Below the pieces are notes generated by a model. That model did not search any database and was not told the origin of the DNA. It worked only from the letters and a program-made list of their open reading frames with translations. From Clostridiales bacterium (lineage in GTDB: Bacteria > Bacillota > Desulfotomaculia > Desulfotomaculales > VENG01), in NCBI GenBank assembly GCA_021736985.1, contig JAIPEW010000020.1, positions 1 to 57,453 of the forward strand: a stretch of DNA of 57,453 nucleotides, given 5' to 3'. Positions 43,041 through 54,330 of this stretch are shown here, one piece after another. How positions within the stretch are numbered: position 1 is the first letter of the stretch; the number at the start of each line of letters is the position of its first letter. Position numbers and translations under genes: made by a program.

Positions 43041-43135
43041 TTATATAAGAATTTTAAACTGTTATTAAATTCCTGCAATCTTATTTAGTTTTACAGCAAA
43101 GAATAAAGTAAGTTAGTTCTGAAGGGGTGAAAAAT

Positions 43136-44110
43136 ATGTTTAATTTACCTTCCATTTTTAAAAGGACAGGAAACCAACCCGAAACAATAGACATAGAGAC
43201 TGCTTATAACATATGGTTAATGTTAAAAACCAGGTATGAAAGCATGGAAAATATACATTTTTTAAAAAACTTTGTTCATGACCGTGATTTTGGCATTTAT
43301 ATTAATTCTTTATTGGAAAGCTTTAAAAACCAGGTAGACATCTTGGAAAAAGAGGCGCAAAAATTTAAGATAAAAATACCTGACAGGCCTCCCTCGGAAT
43401 TGGTAACTTCTAAACGTCTGAATATAGTAACCGATAAATTTATATACGGTAGAATAGTAGCAGATTTAAAAAATGAATTAATGTCACTTAACCGTACAAT
43501 GCGAACATCAACAACAAACGACCGTATAAGAGATTTATTTAATAAATTTTTATTAAACCATATGGAAAATTTTGATGAACTTTATAAATACGGCAAGATA
43601 AAAGGTTGGGAAACTATTGTACCTGCATATAAAACGGCTCAAGCAGAAGGGCAAGAACCTCTATCTTTAAATGAAGCATATCATTTATGGGATCATTTAA
43701 ATTTAAGATATGACCAGCTTCAAATAACACAATTTTTTCTGTCATATACGCATGATGCAGATTTAAAGTATATTTTATCTAAAGGAATTGATACGCTTAA
43801 AAAGCAGCTAAGTTACCTGGAACAGCTTGCAGCAGGTTTTGAGATTCCATTACCTCAAAGGCCGCCTGCAAATATAACAGTTCGTGAAGACCTTGAAACG
43901 TTTGAAGACCATTTTATATATCGTAGAGTTTTAGAAGGTATAGTAAGTGCTGTGGATTTGCATCTCAGGGCTGTAGTAGAAACAATAAGAAACGATGAAT
44001 TACGTAATATATTTTTCAATCTTTATAAAGAAGAATTAAATATATACGGGGATTTATTGAGGTACGGGAAAGCCAAGGGATGGACCAGAAAACCCCCGAT
44101 ATATGAATAA
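43136..44110 (+). CDS. DUF3231 protein with two tandem domains
   Basis: This 324-residue protein is built of two similar halves of about 155 residues, each starting with a helix such as AYNIWLMLKTRYES or AYHLWDHLNLRYDQ and ending KYGKIKGWE or RYGKAKGWTRKPP. This is the DUF3231 fold, common in spore formers and often annotated as spore coat or manganese-binding by similarity. The helical bundles resemble ferritin-like proteins. GGGG lies eight bases before ATG 43136; GTG 43127 is less likely. No operon partner. Confidence 0.8.
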   Translation: MFNLPSIFKRTGNQPETIDIETAYNIWLMLKTRYESMENIHFLKNFVHDRDFGIYINSLLESFKNQVDILEKEAQKFKIKIPDRPPSELVTSKRLNIVTDKFIYGRIVADLKNELMSLNRTMRTSTTNDRIRDLFNKFLLNHMENFDELYKYGKIKGWETIVPAYKTAQAEGQEPLSLNEAYHLWDHLNLRYDQLQITQFFLSYTHDADLKYILSKGIDTLKKQLSYLEQLAAGFEIPLPQRPPANITVREDLETFEDHFIYRRVLEGIVSAVDLHLRAVVETIRNDELRNIFFNLYKEELNIYGDLLRYGKAKGWTRKPPIYE

Positions 44111-44125
44111 ATCACTTATTGTGTT

Positions 44126-45103
44126 TTAATGTTCGCTTTCTTTTTTAAATAATCTTTTATATTCCCCGTACCCCTCTTCTTCGAGTTTTTCTTTAGGGAT
44201 AAAGTGCAGGGCAGCGGAGTTAATACAGTAGCGCTGCCCACCGGGCCCCGGCCCATCATCGAAAACATGTCCCAGGTGGGAGTCAGCCTCACTGCTCCTT
44301 ACTTCCGTTCTTGTCATGTTCAAATTGGTATCGGTTTTTTCCTCAATATTCTCCGGGTGCAGAGGCTTTGTAAAACTGGGCCAGCCTGTACCGGAATCAT
44401 ATTTATCCAGGGAACTAAACAGGGGTTCTCCGGAAACCACGTCTACATAAATACCGTCCTGTTTGTTATCATAATATTTATTATCAAAAGGCGTCTCTGT
44501 TGCATTATTCTGCGTTACTTCGTACTGCAATTTTGTAAGCTTGTCCTTGAGCAGCTTTTTATCTTTTTTCTTTTTCCAGTAGCGGTCGATAAATCTTTCA
44601 CGCCCGGACATTGTCCGATACATTTTATAGTGCCCGGGATTTTTAACGTGATAATCCTGGTGGTATTCTTTTGCAGGATAAAATTTTTTAACCGGTAAAA
44701 TTTTTGTAACTATGGGCCCGTTAAAACGCCCGCTTTCCTCCAGCTCTTTTTTAGATGCTTCTGCTTTTTCTTTCTGCTCGTTATCGTGATAAAAAATCGC
44801 CGTGCGGTAAGAATCTCCCCTGTCGTTGAACTGCCCGTCGTCGTCAGTTGGATCAACCTGGTGCCAGTAAGTTTCCAGGAGTTTTTCATAAGAGCACAGT
44901 GCAGGATCAAATGTTATCTGTACTGCCTCGTAATGCCCTGTTTCTCCCGAACAGACCTCCCTGTAGGTAGGATTCTCTTTCCAACCCCCGGTATACCCGG
45001 AAACCACTTTTTTAACACCCGGAATTTCTTTAAATGGTACAACCATACACCAGAAGCATCCCCCGGCAAATGTCGCTAATGCTAGTTCATTACTGTTGCT
45101 CAA
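44126..45103 (-). CDS. msrAB: Bifunctional peptide methionine sulfoxide reductase MsrA-MsrB
   Basis: This is a 325-residue fusion. The MsrA domain (1-160) has the catalytic GGCFWC motif near residue 14, GYTGG and HPTDDDGQ-like [13 protein letters not shown]. The MsrB domain (about 185-320) has [21 protein letters not shown] and [11 protein letters not shown] with its catalytic Cys. Together they repair both S- and R-methionine sulfoxide. MsrB lacks the zinc CxxC pairs. The start is TTG 45103 preceded by AGGTGA; the transposase fragment begins in the opposite direction across this start. Confidence 0.92.
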
Positions 45104-45928: not shown

Positions 45929-45956
45929 TCAAGTCAAGAACCGTCCCCATTTGACA
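45929..45956. repeat. REP-like site beside the RAYT gene
   Basis: CAAGTCAAGAACCGTCCCC plus ATTTGACAC. Its first 20 bases recur exactly at 36096-36115, and a relative lies at 56235-56255. RAYT transposases act on such REP repeats. Confidence 0.7.
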
Positions 45957-46106
45957 CTTATAGCTGGTACTTTTGTTGATATAATAAACTTATGGATGGC
46001 AGTTTTTACAGATACCGGTGCATCAATGATTGTTATTGCTAACGGCATGCGCTTGATGCGGGATAATAGTTCCTGGAGAAAAATTGTCTGGGAGGTAGGG
46101 GCCTAA
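45957..46106 (+). pseudogene. C-terminal fragment of a second heavy-metal P-type ATPase
   Basis: It encodes LIAGTFVDIINLWMAVFTDT and GASMIVIANGMRLMR, matching residues about 910-950 of the ATPase at 12348-15212 (GTFMGITNLWMAVFADTGAA). The rest of the gene is absent; the fragment starts exactly at the REP-like site and ends at TAA 46106. An insertion or deletion involving the RAYT element probably removed the body. Confidence 0.8.
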
Positions 46107-46377: not shown

Positions 46378-47802
46378 ATTAGTAAGGTGCAAATTAATTC
46401 AACAGGGGAAAATAATTCTCAGAAACAACAAAAAATTTACATGGTGAAGTGGATTATAACCTTGGGTATACCGTTATTGTTATTATTACTTCCAAACTTT
46501 GGGGGTATGAGCCATGATGTGAAAATATTCTTTGCTATAACACTCTGGGGTGTTTTGTCCTGGATTTTTGAACTCCTTCCAAATTCATTAGTGGGATTGC
46601 TTCTTCCCGCTTTGTATGTTGCTTCCGGGGTGGCAACGACCGGGGCTGCTTTTAAACCGTGGTCAACAAGTATTCCCTGGATTGTTATTGGTGGATTAAT
46701 ATTTGGGATGGTACTTAATACAAGTGGTTTTGCAAAGCGTATAGCTTACTGGGTATTATTAAAAACCGGCGGTTCTTTTAAGGGCCTATTGTTTGGAATC
46801 ATGTTTGCCGGTATGATTATTGCTCCTTTTATTCCTACTGTGATGGGTAAGATGGCAATATTTACTCCTATTGCAATTGGGATCTGTAAAGCTCTAGATA
46901 TAAAACCCAAATCCAAAGCTGCATCTGCGATAATGCTGGGAACTTTTTTAGGAGTGGCAAGTCCTTGTTTTTCCTATCTTACAGGCGGCGGACATATTGT
47001 TATGCCGATGAACCTGATTGAATCTGTTACAAAAGAATCTATTACCTGGTCCCAGTATGCTTTCCATAACTTTTTTATTTTCCTTCTCTGGTCAATAATA
47101 TCAATTCTTATTGTTATTGTAACTTTAAGACCTGAAAAGAAAATACAAGCTAAAGAAACCGTAGTTCAAAAATATAACGAACTGGGGCGCGTTTCAGCCC
47201 AGGAAAAGAAAATAGCTTCAATATTAATCGTTACTATATTGCTTTTAAGTACTGATTTTATCCATGGAATCAGTGCACAATGGATATTTTTGATTCTTGG
47301 AGGTATCTGTTTCCTCCCCGGCATTAATTTAATGGATAATGAAAAATTAGGTAAGTTAAATTTTCCAATATTGTTTTTTATAACAGGAGCAATGGCTATT
47401 GGTACGGCCGGTATGTCTTCGGGAGCTGGAGAATATTTATCAAACTTGTTGTTACCTTATCTTGCTGGTTCGCCTCTTTATACAATGCTTGCAACGTGGT
47501 TCTTCGGAGTTTTTATGAACTTTGTACTTACACCGCTTGCGACTGTAGCAAGTTTTACAGTGCCAATTACGGAAATGGCTGTAAATACAGGAATAAATCC
47601 TCTACCGGTTATTTATTCTTTCATGCAGGGTTTAGACCAGTATATATTTCCTTATGAGTTTGCAGTACTGCTTTTTGTTTATAGTTTTGGCTATCTTTCT
47701 TTCAAGCATATGGTTAAAGTTCTTATTCCTAGAATGATACTTAATGCAGTATTTATTGCTGTTATCGCGTATCCTTTCTGGAAACTTATCGGGCTGATTT
47801 AG
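46378..47802 (+). CDS. SLC13/DASS-family anion:sodium symporter, apparent ATT start
   Basis: This 474-residue membrane protein has about 11-12 helices. Features of the DASS family include the long hairpin region with FGIMFAGMIIAPFIPTVMGK, SPCFSYLTGGGHIVMPMNLI and, near the end, FFGVFMNFVLTPLATVASFT. Members import dicarboxylates, sulfate or related anions. The only canonical start, GTG 46387, has no well-placed ribosome site, whereas GGGAG (46364-46368) is nine bases from ATT 46378 (reads MSKVQINSTG). It heads an operon with the glutaredoxin fusion (39-base gap) and the sulfotransferase. Confidence 0.82.
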   Translation: MSKVQINSTGENNSQKQQKIYMVKWIITLGIPLLLLLLPNFGGMSHDVKIFFAITLWGVLSWIFELLPNSLVGLLLPALYVASGVATTGAAFKPWSTSIPWIVIGGLIFGMVLNTSGFAKRIAYWVLLKTGGSFKGLLFGIMFAGMIIAPFIPTVMGKMAIFTPIAIGICKALDIKPKSKAASAIMLGTFLGVASPCFSYLTGGGHIVMPMNLIESVTKESITWSQYAFHNFFIFLLWSIISILIVIVTLRPEKKIQAKETVVQKYNELGRVSAQEKKIASILIVTILLLSTDFIHGISAQWIFLILGGICFLPGINLMDNEKLGKLNFPILFFITGAMAIGTAGMSSGAGEYLSNLLLPYLAGSPLYTMLATWFFGVFMNFVLTPLATVASFTVPITEMAVNTGINPLPVIYSFMQGLDQYIFPYEFAVLLFVYSFGYLSFKHMVKVLIPRMILNAVFIAVIAYPFWKLIGLI

Positions 47803-47841
47803 CAAAACTATAATAAAGAGATAGGAAGGAGGGGGAAATAT

Positions 47842-48690
47842 ATGATTAATACGCTTTATACTGCTACCGGGTGCACACGCTGCAAAATAGTAAAACGCTT
47901 CATGGAAGAACGTGATATTCCTTATACTGAGAAAGATATGAAGGCAGAAGGCAAAGAAGAATTTCAACAGTTTTATAAGGCTAATCGCAAGTATATATAT
48001 CGCGGAGAAAACGGAATTGAATTCCCTGTTTTTACAAATGGAGAGGCAATATACCAGGGCATCGGGCCCGCTGTCGCTTACCTGCATTTTAACGGCAAGT
48101 TGGACGAGTTCTTTAGTATAGGAGTATTGCACAAGGAATGGGTAGACGGGATCTATGTTTCTCACGGTAATCCTGAATATGCTGGGGAGTTTATTGAGGT
48201 CCTGCGTTTTTTAAAAAACAATAACTTGAAATTACAGGTAGATACGAACGGGAAAAACAACCATATCCTACGGCAGATTTTAGATGAAGGGTTAGCAGAT
48301 ATAGTTATAATGAATGTGCTTGGCCCAGAAGAATTATACAGCAAGATTCTGGGAGAAGATATTAATATTGATGAAGTGAAAAAGAGCATAGAAACAGCAG
48401 CTAAATTTCCCGAAGTCCACTTTCAGACAACTGTTGTGCCTGTAGTGCGCCAGGAAGGTGATTCTCCAGAAATCAGTTACCTGGCCCCGGAAGAAGTTGC
48501 TGAAGCAGCAAAATTAATTGAAGAAGTTACAGAAAGCAAAAAAAATCCTTATCTTATTAAGCTATTTAAAACAAAAGAAGCTAAGGACAAGCGTTTAAAG
48601 GCAGTAGGGCCTTTATCTGCTGCAAATTTGATGCCGTACCGGAGTAAGGCAAGAGCTTACCAGGTGTTTACAGAAGTTGAAAAAGCTTGA
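47842..48690 (+). CDS. Glutaredoxin fused to a radical-SAM-like barrel without cluster Cys
   Basis: This is a 282-residue protein. Residues 1-82 are a glutaredoxin (NTLYTATGCTRCK, Cys11 and Cys14). From about 90 onward the sequence follows the activase-type radical SAM barrel: DGIYVSHGNPEYAGEFIEVL occupies the place of the GGEP strand, KLQVDTNGKNNHILRQILDE the next strand, then ADIVIMNVLGPEELY. The CxxxCxxC that would hold the Fe-S cluster is absent from this half. It may be a redox-regulated barrel that binds SAM or a substrate without radical chemistry. AAGGAGGGGG precedes ATG 47842. It lies between the transporter and sulfotransferase genes. Function unknown. Confidence 0.72.
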   Translation: MINTLYTATGCTRCKIVKRFMEERDIPYTEKDMKAEGKEEFQQFYKANRKYIYRGENGIEFPVFTNGEAIYQGIGPAVAYLHFNGKLDEFFSIGVLHKEWVDGIYVSHGNPEYAGEFIEVLRFLKNNNLKLQVDTNGKNNHILRQILDEGLADIVIMNVLGPEELYSKILGEDINIDEVKKSIETAAKFPEVHFQTTVVPVVRQEGDSPEISYLAPEEVAEAAKLIEEVTESKKNPYLIKLFKTKEAKDKRLKAVGPLSAANLMPYRSKARAYQVFTEVEKA

Positions 48691-48737
48691 TTCTAATAGA
48701 AGCTAAGTAGTTAGATAAAAATAATGGAGGCGATACT

Positions 48738-50189
48738 ATGACTTATCCTAGTGTTTATCCAACAGGTGCTACAATTTATAATCCTGAAAAATGTTGGAGC
48801 GGCTATACTATTTTTCAGGCCAGGGAACTTGGAGCACTTTTAATAGATATGAACGGGGGAGAAGTTAACCTTTGGAAGGGATTGCACGGCTTCCCTAATC
48901 AGCTTCTTCCAGGTGGTTATGTTTTAGGTCATACTGGTTTGAGAAACAATGCTTTTGGTATGCAGGATCAGCTTGATTTAGTCCAGGTGGACTGGGAAGG
49001 GAATATAGTCTGGAAGTTTAACCAGTACGAGTATATAGAAGATCCGGGAGAAGAAGCGCAGTGGATGGCCAGGCAGCACCATGATTACCAAAGAGAAGGA
49101 AATCCTGTAGGTTATTATGTGCCTGGCATGGAACCCGTGGTTGACGGGGGAAACACATTGCTTCTGTGTCATAAAAATGTTAAAAACCCTGATATTACAG
49201 ATAAAAATCTTCTTGATGATGTGATTATTGAAGTAGACCGGGAAGGAAATATTGTTTGGGAATGGAGCTGTAATGAACATTTTAATGAATTTGAATTTAG
49301 TGAAGCAGCAAAGAATATTTTAGCAAGGGACCCTAATATGCGTACTGCAGGCGGGGGCATGGGAGACTGGATGCATATCAACTGCATGTCCAAGCTGGGG
49401 CCCAACAAGTGGTATGATGCAGGTGATGAGCGTTTTCATCCTGAAAATATTGCCTGGTGTGCTCGGGAAAGCAATATTCTTGCTATAATTAGTAAAAAAA
49501 CAGGGGAAATTGTTTGGAAAGTTGGACCTGATTATGATACCAGCAAGGAACTAAGGGAATTGGGATGGATTATCGGACCCCATCACTTTCATATGATTCC
49601 CAGGGGACTGCCCGGAGAAGGGAACATGTTAATTTTTGATAATGGTGGATGGGCAGGTTATGGTTTGCCTAATCCATGCTCATCAAAAGGTAGAATGAAT
49701 GTCCTCAGGGATTATTCCAGGGTGCTGGAATTTGATCCAAAAACGCTAAAAATTGTTTGGCAGTATACACCTATTGAAGCTGGCTTAGTACATCCATCTG
49801 ACTCCAACCGTTTTTATAGTCCCTTTATAAGTGGTGCTCAGCGGTTGCCGAATGGAAATACTTTGATTACTGAAGGTTCAGGGGGAAGGCTCATTGAGGT
49901 TACTGCGGAGCACGAAATTGTATGGGAATACATCAGCCCGTATTGGGGAGACAAGTTTAAGATCAACATGGTTTACAGGGCTTACCGGGTACCATATGAA
50001 TGGGTCCCCCAGGTAGATAAACCGGTAGAAACTCCTATAGAGCCAAAAGATGTGGCTAAATTCCGTATGCCCGGAGCTGCGCCGCTTGGACCTAAAAAAC
50101 AAACAGAGGTACCGGGAGTCAAGCCTTACCAGGGTAGTACAGCTTTGTGCGTTGCTGCAGATGACGAATTGGATAATTTAGATAAGTAA
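48738..50189 (+). CDS. Arylsulfotransferase-family (ASST) protein without signal peptide
   Basis: This 483-residue beta-propeller protein of the aryl-sulfate sulfotransferase superfamily carries repeated blade motifs such as DWEGNIVWKFNQYEY, DREGNIVWEW, KKTGEIVWKVG and EHEIVWEYISPYWG, plus candidate catalytic His in DWMHINCMSK and GPHHFHMIPRG. ASST enzymes move sulfate from one aryl sulfate to a phenol without PAPS. Known bacterial AssT is exported; this one begins MTYPSVYPTGATIYNPEK with no signal and should be cytosolic. GGAGG lies seven to eight bases before ATG. It closes the operon and is followed by a terminator. Confidence 0.82.
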   Translation: MTYPSVYPTGATIYNPEKCWSGYTIFQARELGALLIDMNGGEVNLWKGLHGFPNQLLPGGYVLGHTGLRNNAFGMQDQLDLVQVDWEGNIVWKFNQYEYIEDPGEEAQWMARQHHDYQREGNPVGYYVPGMEPVVDGGNTLLLCHKNVKNPDITDKNLLDDVIIEVDREGNIVWEWSCNEHFNEFEFSEAAKNILARDPNMRTAGGGMGDWMHINCMSKLGPNKWYDAGDERFHPENIAWCARESNILAIISKKTGEIVWKVGPDYDTSKELRELGWIIGPHHFHMIPRGLPGEGNMLIFDNGGWAGYGLPNPCSSKGRMNVLRDYSRVLEFDPKTLKIVWQYTPIEAGLVHPSDSNRFYSPFISGAQRLPNGNTLITEGSGGRLIEVTAEHEIVWEYISPYWGDKFKINMVYRAYRVPYEWVPQVDKPVETPIEPKDVAKFRMPGAAPLGPKKQTEVPGVKPYQGSTALCVAADDELDNLDK

Positions 50190-50216: not shown

Positions 50217-50247
50217 GAGGGAGGTGACATTTGTCATCTCCCTTTAT
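50217..50247. terminator. Terminator between ASST and the Crp/Fnr gene
   Basis: GGGAGGTGAC pairs with GTCATCTCCC (50219-50242), followed by TTTATATT. It serves the convergent genes. Confidence 0.8.
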
Positions 50248-50262
50248 ATTAGTAACGAGCTG

Positions 50263-50967
50263 TTAAATATAAAAAGCATTTTTATATAATTCGTCTATAT
50301 CATTAATAATGATATTTCCTTTCTGAGACTTCTTAATTATATCTTCTTGTCTTATTTTATTTAATACGTTTGTTACGGTAACCCGGTGTAATCCCGTTAT
50401 AGAGGCAATCTCTTTATGTGTAATATTTAATTTTATTTCTGTTTTATTCTCATCTTCTTCACTGAATTGTTTAGCAAGTAGAAAAAGCAATTTATTTATT
50501 CTTATATCGGGTTTATTAAAAGCAATATCTTGTACTTGTCCAATTAAAATTTTTATTTTTTTGGCCATCATTTTTAGCATATGTTCAGCTAATGCTGTCT
50601 CTGATTGTATAACTTGCAAAAATTGTTTTTTATTAAACACATAAACTTCACATTCTTCTTCTGCTACAATAGATGCGTTAGCATTCATCTCACTAAAGAA
50701 AGGCACATCTCCGAAAATATTACTTTCTGTTGTATACCAGAAAACTTTTTCATCCCCGGATTCTGATAATAACATTACCTTTATTTTCCCTTTGTTTAGA
50801 TAATATATATTTTCAACTTTATTTCCCTGTTCAAGAATAGTAGTATTTTTCTTATAGATTTTTTTTCTTCCTAATTTGATAAATTTTGTAAAAATGTCAG
50901 GTTCAGCACTGGTTAACCACGGCGCCAAATACAGTTGGGTGAACAAATTAAAAAAATCTTTTGACAC
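50263..50967 (-). CDS. Crp/Fnr-family regulator, CprK-like
   Basis: This 234-residue protein has a cyclic-nucleotide-type beta barrel (ILEQGNKVENIYYLNKGKIKVM, SNIFGDVPFFSE) and a C-terminal HTH (NITHKEIASITGLHRVTVTN). The lack of an N-terminal four-Cys Fnr cluster and the general layout resemble CprK, which senses halogenated phenols in Desulfitobacterium. Placed opposite an arylsulfotransferase operon, it might sense a phenolic compound (inference). The start is GTG 50967 with AAGGGTGG upstream. Confidence 0.82.
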   Translation of the reverse strand: MSKDFFNLFTQLYLAPWLTSAEPDIFTKFIKLGRKKIYKKNTTILEQGNKVENIYYLNKGKIKVMLLSESGDEKVFWYTTESNIFGDVPFFSEMNANASIVAEEECEVYVFNKKQFLQVIQSETALAEHMLKMMAKKIKILIGQVQDIAFNKPDIRINKLLFLLAKQFSEEDENKTEIKLNITHKEIASITGLHRVTVTNVLNKIRQEDIIKKSQKGNIIINDIDELYKNAFYI

Positions 50968-51468: not shown

Positions 51469-52017
51469 ATGAGTAATAAAATGTTTGTTTTGCAAAAAGA
51501 ATTGAGAGAAAAAGGTGTTCTTATTAGTTTTTCAGGTAAATTTTCGCAGGAGATAATCGAAGAATTGGGACAGGCTGTAAAAAAATACCTGGAAACCGAG
51601 AATCACCCCAAAACTGATATATATAATGTCTTCTCAATTTTTATTGAACAAACCCAAAATATTAAGAATTATTGTGTTAGTAAACAGGAAACACCTGCCT
51701 ATGAACAAATTGCTAATTCATGTATTGTTGCTATTGGAAGCCAGGAAAATAATGAAAGATATGTTTGTTCCGGAAATTTAATCTACAATGATGATATAGA
51801 TAAATTGGAGAAAATAATTAACGAATTAATTGGTTTGGACAAACAGTCATTAAAAAAATTATATAAACAGAAGTTAAAACAAGACCTTCCTCCAGACAGC
51901 ACCAGTGCCGGCCTGGGTCTTATTGATGTTGCCAGGAAGGCCAGCAGCCCGTTGGAATATTCCATAGAAAAAAAAGATGAATTCTTTTCATTTTTCACCT
52001 TGAAAGCTATCGTTTAG
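51469..52017 (+). CDS. siaB: SiaB-family protein kinase
   Basis: This 182-residue protein (DUF6272/SiaB family) has a GHKL-like kinase core: FSIFIEQTQNIKNYCVSK occupies the N-box helix, and DSTSAGLGLIDVARKAS the G-box. In Pseudomonas, SiaB phosphorylates SiaC and thereby switches off diguanylate cyclase activation. GGGGGG lies ten bases before ATG 51469. It is the first gene of a co-directional set siaB-siaC-siaA-siaD with gaps of 19 and 35 bases between the first three. Confidence 0.82.
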   Translation: MSNKMFVLQKELREKGVLISFSGKFSQEIIEELGQAVKKYLETENHPKTDIYNVFSIFIEQTQNIKNYCVSKQETPAYEQIANSCIVAIGSQENNERYVCSGNLIYNDDIDKLEKIINELIGLDKQSLKKLYKQKLKQDLPPDSTSAGLGLIDVARKASSPLEYSIEKKDEFFSFFTLKAIV

Positions 52018-52036
52018 AAGATTGGAGGGATAATAA

Positions 52037-52426
52037 GTGGAAAAACTTTTTATCAAAGCTACAAAAAGCACGCCCGAGGTTAATCTTGACTCGGATAACA
52101 ATAATCTTTTAATAAATGGGCAATCTTATCCTGAAAATGCTTTTAAATTTTATGAACCAATTTTTAACTGGGTTAATGAGTATCTTGATGAGCTAGAAAC
52201 CGGGGTCCAGGTGCAGATAGATTTTACCCTTCCTTATATTAATACCAGCAGCTCAAAATGTATTATGATGCTGTTGGACAAATTTGATGATGCATTTTTA
52301 GCAGGTAAAAATATATTCTTAAACTGGTATTGCGACCAGGAAAATGAGATTGAGTTTGAGTGTGCTGAAGAATTCAAAGAAGATATGAATTTCCCAATTG
52401 AGATTGTCTCACGAGAGGATAATTAG
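52037..52426 (+). CDS. siaC: SiaC-family phospho-switch protein (DUF1987)
   Basis: This 129-residue protein starts KLFIKATKSTPEVNLDS and carries the conserved PYINTSSSKCIMMLLDKF segment, in which Thr70 corresponds to the residue phosphorylated by SiaB in Pseudomonas. Unphosphorylated SiaC binds and activates the GGDEF enzyme SiaD. The start is GTG 52037 with GGAGGG nine bases upstream. It is located between its predicted kinase and phosphatase. Confidence 0.88.
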   Translation: MEKLFIKATKSTPEVNLDSDNNNLLINGQSYPENAFKFYEPIFNWVNEYLDELETGVQVQIDFTLPYINTSSSKCIMMLLDKFDDAFLAGKNIFLNWYCDQENEIEFECAEEFKEDMNFPIEIVSREDN

Positions 52427-52461
52427 TAACTGTACATTAATTTGAAAATGAGGTAGATTGA

Positions 52462-54330
52462 ATGCCATTGGGTTGTGAAGAAGAAAAGGATGTACAAATG
52501 TCAAAGGAGCGTGTTGCTCCTGATCGCGATATTATAAAGGTAATTGTTTTTGCCAGTATTATAATTATTCTTTCTATAGTTTTAATTGGTTCAATTGTAT
52601 ACATAATTACTAAAAATGAAGCAGTTCATAAGTTAAAAAAACATGATCTGGTTAATATTGCGGAATCTATGGCTGACAAAGTTGACAGCCGTATTGAACG
52701 AGCACAGGAAGTTTCTCTTATGCTGGCTGCAGATCCGCAAATAAAGGAATGGGTTGCCGGTGGTGAAAGAGATAAAAGTCGAAAAGAGTATACCCTGAAA
52801 AAAATTAATACCATGGTTAGCAAAACAGATTACTTTGATTATTCCAACTCTTTTATTGTAAGCGCAGTAACAAATCATTACTGGGATGAAAAAGGTCATA
52901 TAATTGATACTATGACTAAAAATGATCCCGATGATAATTGGTTTTATAAAACGATTTCTTCCGAAGAGCGAGTTTCCATATCGATAGATTATAACCGGGA
53001 GAGAAAAGATACTTTTGTGTTTATTAATGCATTGATGGGGGATATTAAAGATCCCCTAGGGGTTACGGGAGTAGGTATGGGATTAAAGAATCTCTCCGTG
53101 GAATTCCAGGAGTTCAAGTACGGTAAGACCAGTGACCTCTGGTTAATTGATAAAAAAGGAAACATTTATCTATCTGATAACGTGGAAAATAACGGGCAAA
53201 ATATTGATAAGTTTTTACCAGGTAATGTTAAACAAAAAATTATTAATTACATAGATGGCAAAAATAGAGAGCATCGTACTTTGGAATATAAAAACAGTGA
53301 TCAAGAATTGCTTGATTTAATTGTTTACCCGCTGGATTCTACGCAGCAGCATTTCTTATTATTCAAAATCCCCAGGAGTGAATCAATTAGTTTTTTAAAC
53401 ACTATTAAGCTTAACACTTTACTGGCTTCAATTATTGTACTTATTTCTATTACTTTCTTCTTTTACTTTGTTTCTAATAAACTGGTAAACCCGTACAAGA
53501 AGGCAATCAAATACAACCGGGAACTTGAGGATAAGATTTTTGAAAGAACGCAGGAACTGCAGGAGAAAAATACAAAGTTAACAGACAGCATTGAGTATGC
53601 CCAACGAATACAAAAATCCATGCTGCCGCCGGAAGAGGTGTTAAGCGAAGTATTCAATGATTATTTTCTTATCTGGCAGCCCAGGGATACTGTGGGAGGA
53701 GATTTCTACTGGGTTAAACAATTTGATTCAGGTTATTTTTTTGCTGTGGGAGATTGTACCGGGCATGGTGTTCCCGGGGCACTAATGAGCGTGATATCAA
53801 TTTCAATATTAAACCAGGTTGTAAATGAGAAAGATAGACCTTCTGAAATTCTTAAAAAGCTAAATATACTGATAAAACAAACATTAAAACAGGAAGGCAA
53901 GAGATCTTTGACTGATGACGGCCTGGATATTGCTCTTTGTTTTTTTGATGGGGAGCATACCTTAATTTTTGCAGGGGCAAAAGCATCGCTGTATATTAAA
54001 GATGAGCAAGAAATAAAGGTTCTCCGGGGAAATAAAAAAAGTGTGGGTTATACCCGCACCAGCACGGATTACTCTTTTTCAGATATAAATATAGATGTCA
54101 GGGATAATAACTTGTTTTATATAACTACGGATGGTTTTATTGATCAAAGTGGAGATCAAAACAATTACAGTTTTGGTAAAAAACGCTTTGAGGAATTGAT
54201 TAATAATTGCTATATGGAATCTCTGTCTAGACAACGTGAATTATTCTTGCAAGAATTAGTAGATCATATGGGTGATGAACCGCAGAGAGATGATATAACT
54301 GTATTAGGTTTTACGCTTAAACACCCATGA
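52462..54330 (+). CDS. siaA: SiaA-type membrane PP2C phosphatase with Cache sensor
   Basis: This 622-residue protein has a transmembrane helix at about 25-48, an extracytoplasmic Cache-like sensor (60-310), a second helix (313-337), a coiled linker and a SpoIIE/PP2C domain with the metal-binding motifs DTVGGDFYWV, VGDCTGHGVPGALMS, ITTDGFIDQSG and DDITVLGF. By analogy with SiaA it would dephosphorylate SiaC on an external signal and so raise c-di-GMP. GAGG lies eight bases before ATG 52462. The stop codon lies in an ATGA (54327-54330), directly followed by the folded RNA element. Confidence 0.87.
   Translation: MPLGCEEEKDVQMSKERVAPDRDIIKVIVFASIIIILSIVLIGSIVYIITKNEAVHKLKKHDLVNIAESMADKVDSRIERAQEVSLMLAADPQIKEWVAGGERDKSRKEYTLKKINTMVSKTDYFDYSNSFIVSAVTNHYWDEKGHIIDTMTKNDPDDNWFYKTISSEERVSISIDYNRERKDTFVFINALMGDIKDPLGVTGVGMGLKNLSVEFQEFKYGKTSDLWLIDKKGNIYLSDNVENNGQNIDKFLPGNVKQKIINYIDGKNREHRTLEYKNSDQELLDLIVYPLDSTQQHFLLFKIPRSESISFLNTIKLNTLLASIIVLISITFFFYFVSNKLVNPYKKAIKYNRELEDKIFERTQELQEKNTKLTDSIEYAQRIQKSMLPPEEVLSEVFNDYFLIWQPRDTVGGDFYWVKQFDSGYFFAVGDCTGHGVPGALMSVISISILNQVVNEKDRPSEILKKLNILIKQTLKQEGKRSLTDDGLDIALCFFDGEHTLIFAGAKASLYIKDEQEIKVLRGNKKSVGYTRTSTDYSFSDINIDVRDNNLFYITTDGFIDQSGDQNNYSFGKKRFEELINNCYMESLSRQRELFLQELVDHMGDEPQRDDITVLGFTLKHP

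Follow-up and report, generated by a model that had tools for sequence, protein, structure and literature searches.

What an arylsulfotransferase (ASST) in the cytosol does beside a glutaredoxin and an anion transporter is the question raised by a predicted three-gene operon in the stretch of DNA analyzed here (the window), that is, the whole 57,453 nucleotides from position 1 to 57,453 of the forward strand of contig JAIPEW010000020.1 in the Clostridiales bacterium assembly GCA_021736985.1. The three forward-strand genes encode a DASS/CitT-superfamily anion transporter (46387–47802, GTG start, 471 aa), probably an importer of a sulfated organic anion, a fusion of a glutaredoxin with a degenerate NrdG2-type radical-SAM (S-adenosylmethionine) barrel (47842–48690, 282 aa; the fusion), and the ASST (48738–50189, 483 aa). 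The initial annotation had read them as uptake of an anion or aryl sulfate followed by intracellular sulfate transfer with redox control. The transporter, the cytosolic ASST and the redox protein of that reading were retained, while a redox reaction appeared more likely than redox control: the chain seems to reduce the product of sulfuryl transfer, sulfite being the output. With slightly better than even confidence, we consider a thiol-coupled organosulfate reductase, of which we infer every reaction step, substrate and product, to be the best explanation, because the cluster holds a GcvH and lipoylation set, reductive thioredoxin variants exist, the genes are linked to dsrA, the ASST active site is intact and its tail cysteine C471 is invariant. 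The gene content, the conservation, the folds, the co-occurrence and the lack of other lipoate users were established by computation.

The trio is part of a larger, recurrent and previously undescribed bacterial cluster. Comparison of 27 distinct fusion loci showed that the full content is an anion transporter, the ASST, the lipoyl carrier GcvH, the fusion, dihydrolipoyl dehydrogenase, LipB and LipA, the identities of the GcvH, dihydrolipoyl dehydrogenase, LipB and LipA being upheld by curated NCBIfam cut-offs. A GcvH-like protein was encoded on the same strand within two genes of the fusion at 18 of the 27 loci, and the lipoyl lysine was invariant in these proteins. An ASST was present at 20/27 loci (one thioredoxin left out of the count), dihydrolipoyl dehydrogenase or thioredoxin reductase at 15/27, LipB plus LipA at 6/27, and a CRP-family gene was near 15/27. 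In detail, blast clustering had merged some stand-alone thioredoxins into the ASST group via an ASST–thioredoxin fusion (L065, L070, L074 and L023), and these were read as thioredoxins. The transporters differed among clusters, being DASS or MFS by protein clustering and others, e.g., TRAP-type, by eye. The genome of the window itself has a complete set on another contig (C35, locus L037), consisting of GcvH, the fusion, ASST, DASS, a convergent CRP gene, dihydrolipoyl dehydrogenase, LipB and LipA, and this sister cluster would supply the GcvH, dihydrolipoyl dehydrogenase, LipB and LipA to the window trio. Between the window copy and this second copy, the ASST genes had an omega of 0.075 and the fusion genes one of 0.146; both genes are therefore maintained by purifying selection. 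Recurrence of the trio elsewhere, on which the initial annotation had staked its proposal, was thus found in Clostridia-type genomes, with an ASST in 10 of the 11 fusion genomes. Its gene set of transporter, ASST and redox protein stands, while GcvH, dihydrolipoyl dehydrogenase, LipA, LipB, the thioredoxin-linked and -fused versions and the sulfite link had been overlooked.

The genome of the window (completeness 100) encodes no glycine decarboxylase P-protein and no E2 of a 2-oxoacid or acetoin dehydrogenase, the latter being likewise absent from 9 of the 11 other cluster genomes, and its single GcvH, above the gcvH cut-off, is located in the cluster. In most related genomes, one GcvH gene adjoins glycine decarboxylase and is distinct from the additional GcvHs of these clusters. 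Because neither P-protein nor E2 is present and the sole GcvH lies in the cluster, lipoate in this genome must serve something other than the classical complexes; glycine cleavage as the role of the cluster GcvH and 2-oxoacid dehydrogenases as lipoate users were rejected on the same absences, respectively. It was also considered whether the lipoyl part is oxidative, like LbpA in the sHdr pathway of sulfur oxidation, with the ASST nearby for other reasons. LbpA proteins resemble GcvH (PMC6067878); a GcvH-like lipoyl protein in sulfur metabolism and linked lipoylation genes are shared with that system, and EtfA/EtfB-like genes, from product names read by eye, are near in L022, L039 and L045. However, no Hdr-like gene (hdrC1B1A-hyp-hdrC2B2) was recognised in the loci read, the whole genome not having been searched for them, lipoate synthesis relies on LipA and LipB in place of the sLpl/LipS set, and the hosts are reductive, most of them having dissimilatory sulfite reductase. 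An sHdr-type system is thus highly improbable, and was set aside for the lack of a recognised Hdr in these loci.

The fusion was described in the initial annotation as a CxxC glutaredoxin joined to an activase-type barrel without CxxxCxxC, and the analyses agreed. Profile matches to Glutaredoxin (residues 4–42) and Radical_SAM (residues 98–200) were both sub-threshold, while NCBIfam NrdG2 matched at 2e-14. In its AlphaFold2 model (predicted local distance difference test, pLDDT, 94), residues 1–84 resemble NrdH-type glutaredoxins (Z ~10.7 by structure comparison), and residues 98–280 (48133–48681, +) resemble the barrels of PFL-AE, NifB and lipoyl synthase (Z 9–11; PFL-AE domain 11.1, NifB 11.1), that is, the partial TIM-type barrel of radical SAM enzymes, so structure prediction returned the anticipated activase-type (NrdG2) fold rather than an unrelated one. 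The redox motif CTRC (C11 and C14; 47872–47883, +) is present in 22/22 relatives, among which no other Cys is conserved, so that the CxxxCxxC motif for a [4Fe-4S] cluster is missing. The barrel can be aligned well with NrdG2-type activases from related genomes (25–34% identity over ~110 residues), which carry a TRGCNFRCPWC-type loop, mostly CNFRCPWC; in the fusion, by contrast, this loop is gone, a glutaredoxin N-terminus stands in its place, and GGEP is altered to HGNP, most relatives having GGNP. What remains is a degenerate radical-SAM barrel of NrdG2 type, and with this sequence the fusion cannot bind a radical-SAM cluster in the usual manner; an active radical-SAM enzyme was ruled out as no cluster motif is present. 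The dead barrel may instead be a docking scaffold. Between the window and L037, the fusion genes have a dS of 0.50, far below the 1.56 of the ASST genes, which suggests gene conversion of the fusion. One further fusion gene (L084; G365:C1:2265829-2266449) lies in a genome without an ASST match, and as the profile covers only its residues 1–207, it is perhaps a decaying copy.

The window ASST matched Pfam Arylsulfotrans (PF05935) at 1.4e-21 and 77.4 bits against a gathering score of 24.2, and its model is a beta-propeller with Z scores of 32.5 to Streptomyces Cpz4 (9KF4) and 22 to the E. coli CFT073 ASST (3ELQ). In a PDB sequence search, the window ASST alone gave no match, and its family profile matched only Cpz4, weakly. 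To map residues, a longer clostridial ASST was aligned with 3ELQ by phmmer, and its group was then aligned by profile to the window group. By this route H213 (49374–49376, +) corresponds to H356, N215 to N358, R243 to R374, and H282 (49581–49583, +) to the sulfuryl-carrying histidine H436 of the E. coli enzyme, and all four are invariant or near-invariant among 37 relatives; the equivalent of E. coli H252 is only presumed to be H114 or H115, both invariant. The sulfuryl-transfer site is therefore intact in these alignments. Although the propeller and these four residues are shared with the PAPS (3′-phosphoadenosine-5′-phosphosulfate)-independent ASSTs (E. coli CFT073, Streptomyces Cpz4 and Desulfitobacterium AST), the window ASST differs from them in its cytosolic location, its reductive thiol neighbours, the lack of a conserved Cys pair, and a tail of ~58 residues with an invariant Cys. 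As had been noted at first, an export signal is missing, with no apparent signal peptide at the N-terminus (MTYPSVYPTGATIYNPEKCW). The end of the E. coli ASST matches residue 425 of the window ASST, and the tail past it is predicted to be disordered and poorly conserved except for C471 (50148–50150, +), the sole invariant Cys and the proposed sulfuryl acceptor, which was found in 36/36 relatives with an intact tail and in 14/14 sequences of a smaller alignment. A longer second ASST type (~630 aa, closer to the E. coli ASST and without an obvious signal peptide) often adjoins the short ASST or the fusion (L025, L023, L065 and L070).

The redox partners of the ASST were then compared among loci. 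Among genomes that lack the fusion, thioredoxin and thioredoxin reductase adjoin the ASST in L065 and L070, while in L073 a thioredoxin domain (PF00085, 6e-21) is joined to the C-terminus of the ASST and a thioredoxin-reductase-like gene lies alongside. In the ASST tree, the fusion-linked ASSTs are not one group, and the fusion-linked ASST of Desulfosporosinus fructosivorans is sister to thioredoxin-linked ones (support 99/96). Given the versions with the fusion, with thioredoxin plus its reductase and with a fused thioredoxin, the reductive thiol partner of the ASST recurs in varied forms, exchangeable but reductive. Redox proteins might also adjoin an ASST to maintain it by repairing its thiols or helping it fold, in the way of DsbL/DsbI with the periplasmic ASST of uropathogenic E. 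coli, and an ASST–thiol-oxidoreductase operon of that sort is known (PMC13426309). That assT-dsbL-dsbI operon likewise has an ASST beside thiol-disulfide proteins, but the system is periplasmic and oxidative (disulfide forming), whereas the partners here are reductive and the ASST has no apparent export signal. Furthermore, a dedicated lipoyl carrier would not be needed for maintenance, and a single invariant Cys leaves no conserved disulfide to make or break, so oxidative folding was set aside and maintenance in general is very unlikely.

In the proposed thiol-coupled mechanism, the DASS protein would import a sulfated organic anion, H282 would take its sulfuryl group while an alcohol or phenol leaves, and the group would move to a thiol, most likely C471 of the flexible tail, giving the thiosulfonate Cys-S-SO3-. 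The CTRC glutaredoxin of the fusion would attack this thiosulfonate, freeing sulfite; dihydrolipoyl-GcvH would re-reduce the glutaredoxin, and dihydrolipoyl dehydrogenase would recharge GcvH with NADH. The sulfite would pass to DsrAB, or to assimilation in non-Dsr hosts. Thiol-dependent adenosine 5′-phosphosulfate (APS) reductase also forms an enzyme thiosulfonate, from which sulfite is freed by thioredoxin or, in plants, by a fused thioredoxin-like domain (PMC6827007). The proposed logic is thus shared with the APS/PAPS reductases (CysH and plant APR), namely a thiosulfonate on a mobile Cys, release by thioredoxin or glutaredoxin, and a C-terminal thioredoxin-like domain that is sometimes fused. 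However, the window ASST is not homologous to them, being a propeller in contrast to the nucleotide-binding CysH fold and having no CysH match reported in the profile scans, and the proposed donor is an organic sulfate, with no ATP sulfurylase step, so that neither a nucleotide nor ATP would be needed. Similarly, an NADH–Lpd–lipoyl carrier–AhpD chain, in which AhpD is a thioredoxin-like adaptor, operates in Mycobacterium tuberculosis (PMC12028322). That NADH-Lpd-DlaT-AhpD-AhpC peroxidase chain likewise uses Lpd and a lipoyl domain to supply its thioredoxin-like adaptor, while here the carrier is GcvH, the adaptor the glutaredoxin-barrel fusion, and the proposed final acceptor a thiosulfonate.

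The sulfuryl group might alternatively be accepted by lipoyl-GcvH instead of C471, the resulting lipoyl-S-SO3- closing to the lipoamide disulfide and freeing sulfite, with the fusion docking or recycling GcvH. Among the neighbours of the fusion, GcvH is the most regular (18/27 loci), and a vicinal dithiol could free sulfite unaided. Nevertheless, the thioredoxin-linked and SsuABC-linked members keep C471 yet have no GcvH in their operons, which makes a lipoyl acceptor quite unlikely.

An association with sulfite reduction was assayed in 398 genomes of the phylum, 55 of which have dsrA, by Fisher tests that ignore kinship. Of the 24 ASST genomes, 17 carry dsrA, compared with 38 of the 374 genomes lacking the ASST (p 4e-11); all 11 fusion genomes carry it (p 1e-10). 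In the 39 carriers checked, dsrA was above its cut-off in 31 and AprA in 12, with fragmented AprA in two more; many carriers are therefore sulfite reducers without APS reductase, among them a Moorella sulfitireducens genome (G410). In one genome without dsrA (G351, L074), the ASST is surrounded by an SsuA-like binding protein, O-acetylhomoserine sulfhydrylase, a siroheme protein, closest to sulfite reductase subunit C but below that cut-off, and thioredoxin, a neighbourhood expected if the ASST reaction gives sulfite. Of the remaining ASST carriers without dsrA, one has the thioredoxin fusion and five have ASST-SsuABC-like operons. These data also bear on a simpler scheme, in which an aryl sulfate is taken up and its sulfuryl group is transferred to another phenol or alcohol in the cell, the glutaredoxin and lipoyl parts merely sensing or controlling redox. 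The catalytic residues of PAPS-independent ASSTs are indeed kept, phenolic acceptors are used by known ASSTs (PMC13426309), and CRP-family regulators are close by. Still, transfer to a phenol or alcohol does not account for a complete set of lipoylation and re-reduction genes in a genome where nothing else uses lipoate, nor for the thioredoxin fusion, the sulfite-reductase-like gene of L074, the dsrA association or the invariant tail Cys, and is accordingly unlikely.

Several points weigh against the thiol-coupled reductase. To our knowledge, activity, substrate or product are known for no member, and among ASSTs with a solved structure or an assayed activity, none known to us uses a thiol as acceptor. 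The co-occurrence of the ASST and the fusion with dsrA was tested irrespective of phylogeny, and the genome of the window has AprA, hence no need for the cluster as a sulfite source. Five ASSTs of a large-genome family (f40), in SsuABC-like transporter operons, are without a local redox partner. The ASST was modelled with middling confidence (pLDDT 66), its tail being disordered, so the reach of C471 to H282 is an assumption and C471 could have another job, while the fusion barrel has no assigned one.

As to the substrate, the window DASS protein matched Pfam PF00939 (Na_sulph_symp) at 3e-28, above the Pfam score, and reached 108 bits with NCBIfam TIGR00785, below the cut-off of 198.6 bits. 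It shares 55% identity with the DASS protein encoded in a Desulfosporosinus cluster (L022) and only 37% with that of the second cluster in the same genome; because of this low identity, the two cassettes may import different anions. The SNT motif at both hairpin tips, which we take to be the usual DASS substrate motif, is absent from the two cluster-linked proteins (46387–47802; L037:14814–16232), the window protein reading PTVMG and TPLAT, and this suggests an unusual substrate.

The initial annotation knew of no described pathway with this combination, and within the open-access PMC literature this held: no relevant account was found of an ASST with lipoate, of an ASST with thioredoxin and sulfite reductase, or of organosulfate respiration. 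Each part is of known fold, and the novelty is the system, i.e., lipoate-linked, sulfotransferase-based organosulfate reduction. We regard as evenly balanced the broader proposition of an undescribed respiratory and assimilatory route, in which a sulfotransferase that needs no cofactor and has a catalytic Cys in its C-terminal part would reduce sulfate esters directly to sulfite, and lipoate would carry the electrons of a sulfur pathway that runs reductively. According to a 2026 review, it is still poorly understood which acceptors the bacterial PAPS-independent aryl sulfotransferases use in nature and what their physiological roles are (PMC13426309). If the proposal is true, the acceptor of one ASST subfamily would be a thiol and its product sulfite, giving a cellular role to a long-orphaned enzyme family. 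Likewise, one more lipoate-dependent system would be added to the five classical complexes and sHdr listed so far (PMC6067878), and a use would be found for radical-SAM barrels without a cluster. Organosulfates would enter dissimilatory sulfite reduction ATP-free, sparing sulfate and sulfite reducers the ATP of sulfate activation, and organosulfate respiration would be opened to bacteria without APS reductase.

The organization of the window operon was also determined. The gaps are 39 bp between the DASS and fusion genes and 47 bp between the fusion and ASST genes, consistent with the tight packing first described. A scan of these gaps found no rho-independent terminator, while a strong hairpin followed by T's (50219–50250; minimum free energy −24 kcal/mol, z −6.4) lies past the ASST gene, between it and the convergent regulator gene, in agreement with the common terminator first described. 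The start of the DASS gene was corrected from 46378 to 46387. The convergent gene (50263–50967, −) encodes a CRP/FNR-family regulator by profile match; a sensor gene facing the operon is thus present, but its earlier naming as CprK-like applies only loosely, as cAMP CRPs outscore CprK. Downstream of it, three ORFs (51469–54330, +) resemble a SiaABC-type signalling unit, the last of which (622 aa) by eye appears to combine a membrane sensor and a phosphatase of PP2C/SpoIIE type. Shortly upstream of the operon lies a REP-associated-type IS200-like transposase gene (Y1_Tnp, PF01797; 45096–45914, +), followed at 45932–45960 by a GAACCGTCCCC-type repeat, of which the window has one exact and three one-mismatch copies vs. 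0.34 expected. Further upstream are an apparent methionine sulfoxide reductase fusion, MsrA then MsrB by eye (44126–45103, −, 325 aa), and a gene for a tandem DUF3231 protein resembling coat-F, of spore-coat type (43127–44110, +).

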